From contig NZ_JACDOB010000006.1 in NCBI RefSeq assembly GCF_017656375.1, positions 1 to 64,000 of the forward strand: a stretch of 64,000 bases of DNA, in the 5' to 3' direction. Every line of letters begins with the position of its first letter. Within the stretch, counting starts at the first letter, position 1. Shown here one piece after another: positions 28,800-33,826 of this stretch. A model generated the notes under the pieces. It did no database searches. It had not been told where the DNA came from and saw only the letters and a program-made list of their open reading frames with translations. The position numbers were made by a program, and so were the translations under genes. The stretch comes from Thermovirga sp. GTDB lineage: Bacteria; Synergistota; Synergistia; Synergistales; Thermovirgaceae.

Positions 28800-28828
28800 T
28801 TTACATGTAGATTTTTTTATGTTATAAA
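28800..28828 (+). promoter_or_regulatory. Sigma-70-type promoter for the serine operon leader
   Basis: TTTACA (28800-28805) and TATAAA (28823-28828) are separated by exactly 17 bases. Transcription would begin near 28835, about 38 bases before the leader peptide ATG. Confidence 0.7.
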
Positions 28829-28872
28829 GCTCGCATCGTTAGTATATTTTACAAGGACAGAGTGATGACGTC

Positions 28873-28989
28873 ATGAAAAAAAAGAAAACCTTTGGGTTAT
28901 GTTCAGTTTGTTCGGGAGCAATGGGCGGTTCTTCTTCCTCTTGGGGAGGAGGTAGTGCCTTTTTATTTTGTTTTCGGGCTCCCGGTTAA
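28873..28989 (+). CDS. Ser/Gly/Cys-rich leader peptide of a putative attenuator
   Basis: A 38-codon reading frame starting MKKKKTFGLCSVCSG and including SSSSWGGGS. Seven codons are Ser (four consecutive, 28930-28941), eight Gly and three Cys: 18 of 38 residues are serine or made from serine. It sits between a good promoter and the serine-biosynthesis genes, and a 13-bp hairpin follows. AGTGAT six bases before the ATG is a weak SD. A three-codon frame Met-Thr-Ser (28865-28876), set by AAGGA, ends in a TGA overlapping this ATG and may couple initiation. It resembles the trp/his leader design. The peptide itself is unlikely to have a function. Confidence 0.72.
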   Translation: MKKKKTFGLCSVCSGAMGGSSSSWGGGSAFLFCFRAPG

Positions 28990-28991
28990 GC

Positions 28992-29007
28992 CAATTAGAG
29001 ATAATTG
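28992..29007 (+). promoter_or_regulatory. Short leader hairpin after the leader peptide stop
   Basis: CAATTA and TAATTG form a perfect 6-bp stem closing a GAGA tetraloop, three bases after the leader stop codon. It may be a pause or spacer element in the attenuator. Confidence 0.5.
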
Positions 29008-29028
29008 ATCTAGCAGTCAAGGATAAAT

Positions 29029-29063
29029 TAGATGGGGAGCCTAGATAAAAGGCTCCCCATCTA
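29029..29063 (+). promoter_or_regulatory. Attenuator hairpin upstream of the serine operon
   Basis: A perfect 13-bp inverted repeat, TAGATGGGGAGCC (29029-29041) and GGCTCCCCATCTA (29051-29063), with a 9-base loop. The 5' arm can also pair with GGCTCCC at 28977-28983 inside the leader gene. TCCCC of the 3' arm can also pair with the operon's SD (GGGGGA, 29094-29099). No T-run follows, unlike the other terminators in this window. It could act as a terminator, a pause site or a translational switch. Confidence 0.65.
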
Positions 29064-29105
29064 GCATATAAGGATAGCCTTAGGGCAGGAAAAGGGGGAA
29101 GAAAA

Positions 29106-30254
29106 ATGAGAAGATATCTGTTTACACCGGGGCCAGTTGAGCTGAGTGAGAAGGTAAAAAGGGCGTTGACAATTGACATGGTAAGTCATAGAAGTAGGGA
29201 ATTTTCTTCCTTGATGGAAAGACTGCAGTCTAAGCTTAAAGCTCTAATGGATACCGATGGTCCTGTTTTGCTTTTCCCAGGATCTGGGACTTTTGCGTTA
29301 GAGGCGTTGATAGTTAATTTGATCTCTGAAGGAGATAAAGTGCTTTCTTTTTCTTGCGGGCATTTTGGTGAGCGTTTTAGGGAGATTGTGTCCCGCCTTG
29401 GAGCAAATATAGTGTCAATTGATAAGCCCTATGGTGAAGTCTTTACGAAAGATGATGTAACCGTTGCTTTAGAAGATCACAAGGACGTTACAGCCATCCT
29501 GATAACTCATAATGAGACATCCACAGGAGCTGTTAACCCTATAGAAGATATAACAAAATGCATTCCCGAAAATGGCCCTTTAGTTTTAGTGGATGCAGTA
29601 AGTTCTCTTGGAGTTATGCCGTGCTTCCCGAGGAAATGGAGGGTAGATGGAATTGCATCTTGTTCCCAGAAAGGGCTTATGGTGCCTCCTGGAATAGGAA
29701 TTGCATGGCTTTCTGATAGAGCCTGGAAGAGAGTATACGAACGCAGGACCTGCCCTTCTTACAGCATGGATTTTACCATGATGCGGACATATTTGGAGAA
29801 AGAATTGCCTCAAACACCCGCAACCCCTCCGGTATCTTTGTTTTTTGCCTTGGATGCATCTCTTGCTGAAGTGGAGGCGGAGGGAGGATTTGAGAAGCGC
29901 TTCCAGGAGAGGCAGCTTTATGCCAGGGCCTTATGCAGTGCTGTAAAGGAGTGTGGATTAGAGCTTTTAGTAAAGGAAGAATATGCTCGTTCCCCCGGGG
30001 TTACAGCGATATGCATTCCAGACAAAGCTGATGCTGTCAGGAGTAACCTTCGTAAAAGAGGAATTGAAATAGCGGGAGGACAGGGAAGTTTGAAGAATAA
30101 AATCATAAGAGTGGGGCATTATACCAGAGAATCTATCTCGGAATTGCGCTATTTTATTCAAGCTCTTCGAGAAGCTTCTCAAGAAGCAGGGATTGTTTTA
30201 AAGGAGACTAACTTGGATAAAATCGACAACATTTTTGCAGGGGGGTGCATCTAG
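29106..30254 (+). CDS. Class V aminotransferase (serine-glyoxylate/phosphoserine type)
   Basis: PLP enzyme of 382 residues, fold type I class V: RYLFTPGPVELSEKVK opening, ETSTGAVNPIE, the VDAVSSLG Asp and the PLP lysine in ASCSQKGLMVPPG. By sequence it looks like alanine/serine-glyoxylate or small-subunit hydrogenase-associated aminotransferases. Its place directly before serA suggests that it does the SerC step (3-phosphohydroxypyruvate to phosphoserine), as reported for some class V homologs. The SD AGGGGGA (29093-29099) precedes the ATG and may be masked by the leader structure. The stop directly abuts the serA GTG. Confidence 0.85.
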   Translation: MRRYLFTPGPVELSEKVKRALTIDMVSHRSREFSSLMERLQSKLKALMDTDGPVLLFPGSGTFALEALIVNLISEGDKVLSFSCGHFGERFREIVSRLGANIVSIDKPYGEVFTKDDVTVALEDHKDVTAILITHNETSTGAVNPIEDITKCIPENGPLVLVDAVSSLGVMPCFPRKWRVDGIASCSQKGLMVPPGIGIAWLSDRAWKRVYERRTCPSYSMDFTMMRTYLEKELPQTPATPPVSLFFALDASLAEVEAEGGFEKRFQERQLYARALCSAVKECGLELLVKEEYARSPGVTAICIPDKADAVRSNLRKRGIEIAGGQGSLKNKIIRVGHYTRESISELRYFIQALREASQEAGIVLKETNLDKIDNIFAGGCI

Positions 30255-31895
30255 GTGTGGAAAGTGCTTGTTACGGAGAAAGTCCATCCTTCGGGTCTGG
30301 AGGAACTAAGAAAAGCCCCTGATGTGGAGTTAATAGAAAAAGTGGGCATGAACGAGGAGGAATTGCTATTCTGTGTGAGAGATGTGGATGCATTGATAAC
30401 AAGGAGCGGGACGCCGATTGGTAGAAAGGTTCTTGAAGCGGCTAAAAAATTAAAAGTTATTGCCAGGGCTGGAGTTGGAGTAGATAATATAGATTTGGAT
30501 TGGGCGAGCCGTAAGGGTGTAGTTGTGATAAATGCCCCTACCGGAAATACTTTAGCTGCTACTGAGCAAACTTTTGCGCTCCTTTTGGCCATTTGCCGCA
30601 AATTACCTCATGCATTTAACGATGTGTCGATGGGTAATTGGAACAGAAAAGCTTTTATGGGTATGCAGCTTCATGGTAAGACCATGCTCATTATAGGATT
30701 CGGCAGAATAGGCAGTCAGGTGGCTAAAAGAGCAAAAGCATTTGGGATGGATGTTTTGGCCTACGATCCATACATCAGGACTACAAAAGCTGAAGAATTA
30801 GGCGTGAAGCATGTTCCTGAATTGGAGGGTGCTTTGGCGTTGGCCGATATTATAACTCTACATACTCCTTTAACCTCCGAGACGAAAGGTATGATAAATG
30901 AGAGAACCTTACGAGCCTTCAAAAAGGGGGCTATCCTTATAAATTGTGCGAGAGGCGGATTAGTAGATGAGATTGCTTGCGCGAATGCCATTAGGGAAGG
31001 CCGTCTTAGGGGGGCTGCCTTTGATGTCTTTTCTAAAGAGCCCCCTAGCAAGGATAATCCTCTTCTTGCAGAAGATATAAGGGATAGGATCGTGCTAACT
31101 CCTCATATAGGAGCTAACACCCATGAGGCTCAATCTGCTGTTTCAAGCATAATAGCCAAAAATCTTTTAGCAGCGTTGAAGGGAGAACCCTACGAGCATG
31201 CAGTTAATTTGCCTTTTATGGAACACAAACTTTCGCCTCAAGGAAGGCGGTTCTTAGCCTTGGCGAGAAAGATGGGAATCTTGGCAGCTTCTATTGTAAA
31301 TGGAGCTCCCGGTTCCATACTGTTTTCCACGAGAGGAATACCTATAGAAGAGGTAGTCGAGGTCAAAAAATACGAATATTGCAGCCATTCCCCATATGCT
31401 ATAGCTGCACTTAAAGGAGTTTTGGAAAGGCATCTAGGGCGAGGAATAAGTTACATGGAAGCGCCTATTTTAGCCCAAGAACGGGGAGTATATGTGGAGG
31501 AAGCGAGTATTTCCGACTCGAGATATCGTTATTTGATGCAATTAAAAGTAAAAAGCGAAAAAGACGAAGCATTGATACAGGCAACGGTTACAGAAGACGA
31601 TTGTAAGCAGCGCATAATAGGTATAAATGGATATCGTATGGATTTTGAACCTAAGGGAAACTATATTATTTTCCAAAATCATGACAGGCCTGGCGTCATA
31701 GGAAAGATAGGTTCATACCTTGGTGAAAAGGACATAAATATAGCCAATTTTTATTTGGGAAGAAAGGATGGAAGTGGTTTGGCTTTTGGAGTTTTACAGA
31801 TAGATGGAAAAGTGAATAAGTCCGTTTTGGAGGACCTCAACGCTGTTGACGATTTTATCTGGGTAAATAGCGTCAAATTTGAGGGGGATCAGTGA
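30255..31895 (+). CDS. serA: D-3-phosphoglycerate dehydrogenase
   Basis: First enzyme of serine synthesis, 546 residues: 3-phosphoglycerate plus NAD+ to 3-phosphohydroxypyruvate. The layout is the long SerA type: catalytic/NAD domain with GFGRIGSQVAKRAKAFGMD (about residues 146-165), ARGGLVDE and the His of LTPHIGANT; an intervening ASB domain; and a C-terminal ACT domain (IIFQNHDRPGVIGKIGSYLG) that usually mediates serine feedback. The start is GTG 30255, immediately after the aminotransferase stop. Confidence 0.95.
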   Translation: MWKVLVTEKVHPSGLEELRKAPDVELIEKVGMNEEELLFCVRDVDALITRSGTPIGRKVLEAAKKLKVIARAGVGVDNIDLDWASRKGVVVINAPTGNTLAATEQTFALLLAICRKLPHAFNDVSMGNWNRKAFMGMQLHGKTMLIIGFGRIGSQVAKRAKAFGMDVLAYDPYIRTTKAEELGVKHVPELEGALALADIITLHTPLTSETKGMINERTLRAFKKGAILINCARGGLVDEIACANAIREGRLRGAAFDVFSKEPPSKDNPLLAEDIRDRIVLTPHIGANTHEAQSAVSSIIAKNLLAALKGEPYEHAVNLPFMEHKLSPQGRRFLALARKMGILAASIVNGAPGSILFSTRGIPIEEVVEVKKYEYCSHSPYAIAALKGVLERHLGRGISYMEAPILAQERGVYVEEASISDSRYRYLMQLKVKSEKDEALIQATVTEDDCKQRIIGINGYRMDFEPKGNYIIFQNHDRPGVIGKIGSYLGEKDINIANFYLGRKDGSGLAFGVLQIDGKVNKSVLEDLNAVDDFIWVNSVKFEGDQ

Positions 31896-31896
31896 T

Positions 31897-32529
31897 ATGC
31901 GTTTTTTTCTTATACGCCATGGAAGGACAGAGTGGAATTCTCAAGGGAGATACCAAGGTTCCATAGATGTTCCTCTTGATGAAACAGGCAAAAAGCAGGC
32001 TGAAATGCTGGCCAAATCTTTAGCCTGTGTATCTATAGATAAGGTTTGGAGTAGCCCATTGGAAAGGGCAAAAGATACTGCCCTATGCATATCGGGAGAA
32101 CAAGGCTGTCCATTGGAAATCCACGAAGGGCTTGGGGAGATTTCTCATGGTGAGTGGGAAGGCCGGTATGCAGAAGAAGTGAAAAAGACCTGGCCTGAGT
32201 TATACGATCTTTGGCATAGTGAGCCTGAAAAAGTTAAGATGCCTTTAGGAGAAAGCTTGATGGATGTTGAAAAAAGGGCAAGAAATGCAATGGAAGATAT
32301 ATTAAGTGAAGATAAAGATCTTGTTGCTATTGTAACGCATGATGCTGTTATTAAGGTCTTGTTATGCCACTTTCTAGGCTTGCCCTTATCCAAATTTTGG
32401 AGCTTTCACGTGGGCAACTGTTCGGTTACCATGTTGGAAAAGAATAAAAAAGGGGTGCGTCTTTATCTTTTAGGAGAGCAGCCTTGGGCTACAAATAGAT
32501 ACAGTTGGGAAAAGCAAGCAGGGTTGTAA
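31897..32529 (+). CDS. Histidine phosphatase family protein, candidate phosphoserine phosphatase
   Basis: Phosphoglycerate-mutase-like enzyme of 210 residues. The catalytic RHG motif is in FFLIRHGRTEWNSQGRYQG, the second His in VTHDAV, and the acid/base Glu in HGEWEG. It directly follows serA, and no HAD-type SerB is present here, so it is a good candidate for the metal-independent phosphoserine phosphatase (PspA type of Hydrogenobacter) that would finish serine synthesis. Alpha-ribazole phosphatase (CobC) is the main alternative. GAGGGGGATC directs ATG 31897, one base after the serA stop. Confidence 0.85.
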   Translation: MRFFLIRHGRTEWNSQGRYQGSIDVPLDETGKKQAEMLAKSLACVSIDKVWSSPLERAKDTALCISGEQGCPLEIHEGLGEISHGEWEGRYAEEVKKTWPELYDLWHSEPEKVKMPLGESLMDVEKRARNAMEDILSEDKDLVAIVTHDAVIKVLLCHFLGLPLSKFWSFHVGNCSVTMLEKNKKGVRLYLLGEQPWATNRYSWEKQAGL

Positions 32530-32608
32530 CCTTTACGTGGACACATGATATTTTTAGGTGTATGTTCAATTCGGGTTAGTTTACATTTGCTTTTTGGGGG
32601 TGGCCGCG

Positions 32609-33826
32609 TTGAGTATTAAAAGAATGGAGGTTCTGAAATCTCTTGCCGTAGAAGCACCGACGAAAATTGTTATGTTGGTGATAGACGGCCTTGGAGGATT
32701 ACCCGATAAAGATGGAATGACCGAGCTGGAGAGGGCTGTTACGCCTAATTTGGATAAAATGGCGTTAGAGGGGGAAACTGGACTTTTAGAAATGGTAGAT
32801 GTGGGACTAACTCCAGGAAGTGGCCCAGGGCATTTAGCGCTGTTCGGTTATGACCCCTTGGAGTTTCCAGTAGGAAGGGGAATTCTCGAGGCTTTAGGGA
32901 CGGGTGCTACTGTCTCCAAGGGTGATGTTTGCGCCAGGGGTAACTTTGCCACCTGGGGGCAAAGAGATGTCATTGTTGACAGAAGAGCTGGGCGGATAGA
33001 AACGGAAAAATCAAGGGAGCTCGTAAGGCGTCTAAGTGAAGCTATAACAGAGATAGAGGGAGTAAAGATTAACTACTACCCTGGCATGGAACACAGGTTT
33101 TCTTTGGTTTTTTCAGGTGAGGGATTGTGTGATTGTGTGAGTGATGCAGATCCACAGAGGGAGGGTTCTCCCATGAAGTGGGCGGAAGCCATATCGCCAG
33201 AGGGGGCCAAAATGGCATATATAGCTAACAAGTTTATACAAGAGGCCCGAAAAGTATTAAGAGACGAACCCAAGGCAAATGGGTGTTTGCTGAGAGGTTT
33301 TTCCGGAGTGCCTGACATTCCTCATCTTAGTGAATTATATAAAATTAAACCTCTTGCCTTGGCTGCATACCCTATGTATAAGGGCCTTGCAAGCTTGGTT
33401 GGAATGGATGTCTTAGATGATATAGAAGGTAGCCCTGCGAAGTTAATTGAAGAATTACAGGCCAGGTGGGATGCTTATGACTTCTTCTATGTTCATGTTA
33501 AACATACGGATAGCAGAGGAGAAGATGGGGATGTGGCAGGGAAAGTAAAGGTAATAGAGGAAGTGGATAAGGTGATACCTTCATTAATGGAATTGAGCCC
33601 GGATGTCTTAGTCGTGACAGGAGACCACAGCACCCCAGCGAAGATGAAGGGACACTCTTGGCATCCGTCACCGATCGCTCTACTTAGTTCATACGTGAGG
33701 CCAGATGGAAGTTCTAATTTTGGAGAAAGAGCTTGCGCTAGAGGAAGTTTGGGTATAATTCCTGCTTGGAAGCTAATGGGTTTGCTTTTGGCCCATGGCA
33801 GGCGATTGAAGAAATTTGGTGCATAA
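32609..33826 (+). CDS. apgM: 2,3-bisphosphoglycerate-independent phosphoglycerate mutase, archaeal type
   Basis: Alkaline-phosphatase-superfamily mutase of 405 residues that interconverts 3- and 2-phosphoglycerate. Metal and nucleophile motifs are visible: VIDGLGGLPDKDG, the Ser region PGSGPGHLALFGYDP, VKHTDSRGEDGD and VTGDHSTP. No ATG fits. GGGGGTGG (32595-32602) points to TTG 32609, which gives the usual family length; ATG 32624 is the alternative. It sits behind the serine genes, which draw on the same 3-phosphoglycerate pool. Confidence 0.92.
   Translation: MSIKRMEVLKSLAVEAPTKIVMLVIDGLGGLPDKDGMTELERAVTPNLDKMALEGETGLLEMVDVGLTPGSGPGHLALFGYDPLEFPVGRGILEALGTGATVSKGDVCARGNFATWGQRDVIVDRRAGRIETEKSRELVRRLSEAITEIEGVKINYYPGMEHRFSLVFSGEGLCDCVSDADPQREGSPMKWAEAISPEGAKMAYIANKFIQEARKVLRDEPKANGCLLRGFSGVPDIPHLSELYKIKPLALAAYPMYKGLASLVGMDVLDDIEGSPAKLIEELQARWDAYDFFYVHVKHTDSRGEDGDVAGKVKVIEEVDKVIPSLMELSPDVLVVTGDHSTPAKMKGHSWHPSPIALLSSYVRPDGSSNFGERACARGSLGIIPAWKLMGLLLAHGRRLKKFGA

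Follow-up and report, generated by a model that had tools for sequence, protein, structure and literature searches.

We asked what the short serine-rich reading frame ahead of a serine-biosynthesis operon of Thermovirga sp. is for, and whether it could be the leader peptide of a transcription attenuator. To our knowledge, serine is not among the amino acids usually named as being served by leader-peptide attenuators. The locus was analysed within a stretch of 64,000 nucleotides (the window), to whose positions all coordinates refer. The features concerned are the following:

28800..28828, + strand: promoter, TTTACA (28800-28805), 17-nt spacer, TATAAA (28823-28828), from sequence
28873..28989, + strand: Ser-rich leader peptide gene of 38 codons, from the open reading frame and its conservation in relatives
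28913..28919, + strand: segment 1, protector, CGGGAGC, which can pair with segment 2
28930..28941, + strand: four Ser codons, TCT TCT TCC TCT, the expected stall site
28976..28984, + strand: segment 2, GGGCTCCCG, towards the 3' end of the leader frame, pairing with segment 1 or segment 3
29030..29064, + strand: terminator-like hairpin of 14-15 pairs, with segment 3, GGGGAGCC (29034-29041), against segment 4, GGCTCCCC (29051-29058)
29106..30254, + strand: class V aminotransferase, which passed no equivalog cut-off
30255..31895, + strand: serA, D-3-phosphoglycerate dehydrogenase, TIGR01327 at 584 bits against a cut-off of 454
31879..32529, + strand: histidine-phosphatase family protein, PF00300, CobC-like (above that cut-off) and PspA-like (below it)
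32558..33826, + strand: apgM, cofactor-independent phosphoglycerate mutase, which supplies 3-phosphoglycerate

The sequence was rechecked against an earlier note on this DNA, which had described a frame of 38 codons with 7 Ser, 8 Gly and 3 Cys and a run of four Ser, a TTTACA-N17-TATAAA promoter, and GGCTCCC at 28977-28983. The frame (28873-28989, stop included; translation MKKKKTFGLCSVCSGAMGGSSSSWGGGSAFLFCFRAPG) has exactly this composition and encodes SSSS at 28930-28941; the promoter elements begin at 28800 and 28823 with 17 nt between them, and GGCTCCC is present (GCTCCCG located at 28978). Transcription is expected to start near 28835, downstream of these elements, and promoter-like elements resembling them occur at the equivalent place in relatives. 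The leader DNA has a single occurrence in the genome. For the window taken alone, the richness in Ser is unusual to a modest degree: the maximum count per 16-residue stretch is 6, and pooled dinucleotide shuffles give at least 6 in ~2.7%. A tiny frame, ATG ACG TCA TGA (28865-28876), overlaps the leader start through ATGA, and a congeneric locus (L002) likewise has ATG ACG CAA TGA; the overlap may couple leader initiation to this frame.

The genes that the note had placed behind the leader, a class V aminotransferase, serA and a PGM-like phosphatase, were also recovered, serA by TIGR01327 and the phosphatase by PF00300. Because the aminotransferase passed no equivalog cut-off, its role in serine synthesis is read from its place, and in this operon context it is probably the phosphoserine aminotransferase. 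The histidine-phosphatase family protein is possibly the phosphoserine phosphatase. Close behind these genes lies apgM, probably a member of the same operon, an arrangement that would put the supply of 3-phosphoglycerate under shared control.

Ahead of the operon, the leader RNA offers three alternative pairings. GCTCCCG (28978) can pair with GGGGAGCC, which can alternatively pair with GGCTCCCC. In the window, the full, free RNA folds as 1:2 plus 3:4. With a ribosome placed at any of the four Ser codons, the nascent RNA beyond it folds as 2:3; with one at the stop codon, the RNA past it folds as 3:4. The geometry proposed earlier, in which a stalled ribosome frees GGCTCCC and one at the stop codon covers it, agrees with these folds, and segment 1 (28913-28919), the protector, had been missed. 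Pairing 3:4 wins in every fold after its 3' arm is completed, so the decision of the attenuator would be kinetic, as is usual in such devices. The mechanism that we infer comprises leader translation, ribosome stalling, termination at the hairpin, and serine as the signal. When serine is scarce, the ribosome would stall at the TCN run (28930-28941) and, with a footprint of ~15 bases on either side, would sit on segment 1; the 2:3 antiterminator would then form and polymerase would read through. When serine is plentiful, the ribosome would proceed to the stop codon (28987-28989) and cover segment 2, the 3:4 terminator would form and transcription would stop. Were the leader left untranslated, 1:2 would pair and the 3:4 terminator would form again. 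Among the hallmarks of an attenuator, a promoter and short frame before the operon, a Ser codon run, an antiterminator and a protector pairing (1:2) are all seen in the window. In L002 the 1:2 pairing is longer (TTCGGGAGC:GCTCCCGAA). In the genera of four other loci (L058, L059, L061 and L070) the leader start codon seems to coincide with segment 1 (CTTTGAG) or to follow it, and there the 1:2 pairing could touch leader initiation as well.

Conservation of the leader was examined across Synergistota. The aminotransferase was searched in 60 relatives and later in 188 genomes of the phylum, 70 of which have it at E ≤ 1e-70, and ~420 bases upstream were inspected at each aminotransferase locus. 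A single-sequence search of genome contigs matched no relative; an alignment query was needed. The score of a locus was the largest number of Ser in any 16-residue stretch of a short frame whose end lies at a suitable distance. At least 5 Ser were found in 57 of 64 scored loci and at least 7 in 38 of 64, against ~11% and ~0.5% of shuffles, respectively. The loci with an untruncated upstream region number 63, namely the 64 scored loci minus three at contig ends (L020, L050, L076) plus two from outside the score (L063, L067), and a Ser-rich short frame stands ahead of the orthologous operon in 57 of them. Such a frame had been named in the earlier note as the thing to look for in other Synergistota, and it proved to be conserved, together with an alternative covarying pairing (see below). 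The leader peptide of L002, from the genus of the window, is MTKSKKRLLGIGCSGAMGSSSSSWEGDSSSIVLFLRAPETDY, and that of L035 is MRRPAYLVFNGISSSSLSSGVSSSCGGSGCHCRSRNVYPMNRENN. Four scored, untruncated loci (L025, L043, L052, L062) are without a Ser-rich frame, and in L063 and L067 no Ser leader was seen by eye. L065 and four loci of family f11 (L072-L075) were not scored; a genome of this family seen as L127 has no leader. The absence of the leader from the six untruncated loci just named, from f11 and from some genomes that are small or of host-associated lifestyle counts against the attenuator. L043 and L062 both belong to genus g48, and L043 keeps a hairpin with a U-run and, upstream, sequence complementary to this hairpin, as though its leader frame had been lost or replaced.

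We asked what is kept in these frames. Over 26 genera, Ser makes up 27% of in-frame residues, against 7.5-7.8% when the same DNA is read in either of the other two frames, and all six codons are used (TCC 172, TCT 130, TCA 77, TCG 71, AGC 37, AGT 29). Because Ser is enriched in one frame only and through six codons, the amino acid itself is what is kept. The share of TCN over AGY is 0.86 in leaders versus 0.77 in the downstream gene (p = 0.003).

The same composition bears on a possible, though rather unlikely, alternative: just as ilv leaders respond to Ile, Val and Leu together, this leader would sense the serine family collectively, Ser along with Gly and Cys and perhaps Trp. Non-Ser residues within the Ser-rich stretch are 32% Gly and 14% Cys, well above Ala (7.5), Thr (3.4), Tyr (1.1) and Pro (0.5), though these are mutationally as near to Ser codons; in-frame Gly (14%) and Cys (5.5%) likewise exceed their levels in the other frames (~6% and ~2%). 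However, the Gly codon GGA is TCC in reverse complement and may contribute to a hairpin over the Ser run, Cys falls within the stretch in only 16 of the 26 genera, and Ser dominates everywhere. The enrichment of Gly and Cys around the Ser codons would fit the serine-family idea of the earlier note, but hairpin pairing by GGA may be an alternative source of the Gly enrichment. Stated for the phylum, group sensing would put Ser first, with the Gly and Cys codons of the stall region also under selection, a reading that we hold to be possible but rather unlikely; if it is true, the serine operon would respond when serine or its main products run short.

Next, the RNA pairings were followed across relatives. 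All 56 loci folded have a hairpin between leader and gene (median -20.6 kcal/mol), and at least 4 T occur in the 8 bases after it in 54 of 56, the exceptions being the window (2) and L016 (3). Pairing of the segment 2 region with the terminator 5' arm had a mean z of -2.5 against shuffles of the 3' part of the leader, with P ≤ 0.05 in 37 of 56 loci. When partners were permuted between genera, antiterminator pairing weakened from -21.7 kcal/mol (matched) to -18.2 kcal/mol (sd 0.65). The same permutation gave p of at most 0.0015 for the protector pairing 1:2, for which long duplexes make the test loose. Because permutation between genera retains shared base composition, the shuffle test, which removes composition but is weaker, is the safer of the two. 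In one family the antiterminator helix GUCCCGAAACG:CGUUUC(A)GGGAC is replaced by GUCUCAAAGCG:CGUUUUGAGAC, with both partners changed at two positions; 151 of 154 cells of this helix pair, cells being sequences and not independent events. The registers for counting these pairs were fixed manually, because the MAFFT alignment A2 shifts the antiterminator bulge by one column. Shuffles, permutations and compensatory changes in both strands of the helix all speak for the antiterminator. Counting against the model, the computed core of segment 2 lies clear of a ribosome placed at the stop codon in 31 of 56 loci, and therefore the release step may differ between clades.

Computation establishes the frame, its conservation, the three alternative pairings and the operon content. 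We consider it very probable that the region is a ribosome-mediated transcription attenuator through which tRNA-Ser charging controls the serine-biosynthesis operon. For the phylum, sequence alone could hardly make the case for a serine attenuator firmer. For the species of the window we hold it likely, a missing U-run being the weak point. The hairpin of the window (29030-29064) is followed by GCATATAAG (29065-29075), which has no U-run, whereas the hairpin of L002 is followed by TTTTTATT, a U-run; the terminator appears intact in this sister species and imperfect in the window. Since the window has no U-run, either termination proceeds without one or this species has a weaker device. That it has partly decayed, or no longer terminates after losing the U-run while being functional in relatives, seems unlikely to us: the difference between GCATATAAG and TTTTTATT is what such decay would leave, but the Ser run and segments 1-4 are intact, as is the stem, whose 14-15 pairs run without interruption, and decay would be expected there too.

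Readings that dispense with attenuation by a translating ribosome fare worse. That the frame encodes a conserved small protein acting independently would agree with its conservation at the equivalent place. This reading was rejected as very improbable: the leader peptide belongs to no Pfam family, the peptides share little between genera beyond Ser, Gly and Cys, their lengths and ends vary, and the 3' part of the frame follows the RNA pairing. A riboswitch or T-box that senses serine or tRNA-Ser with the frame untranslated has some appeal, as a T-box is used by the Firmicutes orthologues, but it was judged hardly credible and rejected, since Ser enrichment is frame-specific and Rfam scans of the window and 20 Synergistota loci matched no family, the T-box (RF00230) and the serC RNA element (RF00517) included. 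Chance Ser richness from TC-rich DNA, with which the modest count in the window alone would agree, is practically dismissed by in-frame conservation in some 26 genera and by codon variation.

Returning to the proposed tRNA-Ser attenuator, we asked which gene it accompanies. Among the 188 phylum genomes, 87 have serA. Ten genomes in which serA is not preceded by this aminotransferase (L179-L187, L192) carry a Ser-rich frame and a U-run hairpin directly before serA; for instance, the leader of L181 is MMMNRNAVCGSCGGSCSRSWSSSQDREGCCFWPRDQV. This arrangement of serA belongs to families f8 and f10, genera g21, g27 and g32. The leader thus appears to travel with serA and not with one particular neighbour gene. 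No Ser-rich leader was found before serA in L188-L191. In L188-L190 (genera g9 and g28) serA stands alone, with neither leader nor terminator, and the device appears to have been lost in these two genera. A Ser leader was also sought and not found for serS of the same genomes, which lies behind another gene. Similarly, orthologous genes of Armatimonadetes, Chloroflexi and Firmicutes showed no Ser-rich frame with a terminator; the few Ser counts of 7-8 in these groups fall in seemingly coding or antisense regions.

If the tRNA-Ser attenuator is as we propose, it gives a role to short Ser-rich Synergistota frames that annotation passes over, makes dozens of sequences available for testing serine attenuation, and renders the serine response of these anaerobic bacteria directly testable. 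Its logic is that of the classical attenuators (trp, his, leu, ilv, thr, phe), with the same run of product codons, protector, antiterminator, terminator and three states. The differences here are serine and Synergistota, neither of which was found described in the open-access papers searched. The earlier note knew of no described serine version, and our search agrees, having found no serine leader peptide or attenuator in open-access papers. The main texts of two attenuator surveys do not mention serine (PMC2965389, PMC1262725), and the main text of an intergenic-region survey that includes Thermovirga lienii mentions neither serine nor serA (PMC6429828). As far as seen, the mechanism is classical and the amino acid and phylum are new, in the sense of not found described, not of proved new.

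Several known systems come close. The cysteine leader peptides of Actinobacteria are alike in using an amino acid outside the classical list; they differ in that their Cys runs lie close to the stop codon and a conserved terminator hairpin is lacking (PMC1262725). The serC RNA element of alpha-proteobacteria likewise precedes a serC-serA operon, where two short hairpins are proposed to hide the ribosome-binding site (RF00517; PMC1273637), but its covariance model is unmatched here. In B. subtilis sinR, Ser codons, chiefly TCN, sense serine starvation (PMC3862929), and the leaders here favour TCN too; the sinR effect, however, is on protein yield inside the gene itself, with neither leader peptide nor attenuator. 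A parallel in task is the serine T-box of Firmicutes, shown experimentally before serA in Paenibacillus polymyxa (PMC8002221). A T-box precedes the Firmicutes orthologous gene, with the RF00230 gathering score reached in L121, L129, L142 and L149, and its specifier triplet, read by eye from alignments, is UCC (clearest in L142, L144, L149 and L152). These specifiers point independently to tRNA-Ser charging as the signal. The two devices share the operon or gene, the tRNA-Ser charging signal and transcription termination, but in the T-box the tRNA binds the RNA directly and no leader peptide is involved, and neither the window nor the 20 Synergistota loci scanned have a T-box. The same genes seem, from these sequences, to answer to tRNA-Ser in both groups through different RNA devices, one regulatory task apparently solved twice for the same signal and gene set, by the ribosome in Synergistota and by the T-box in Firmicutes.
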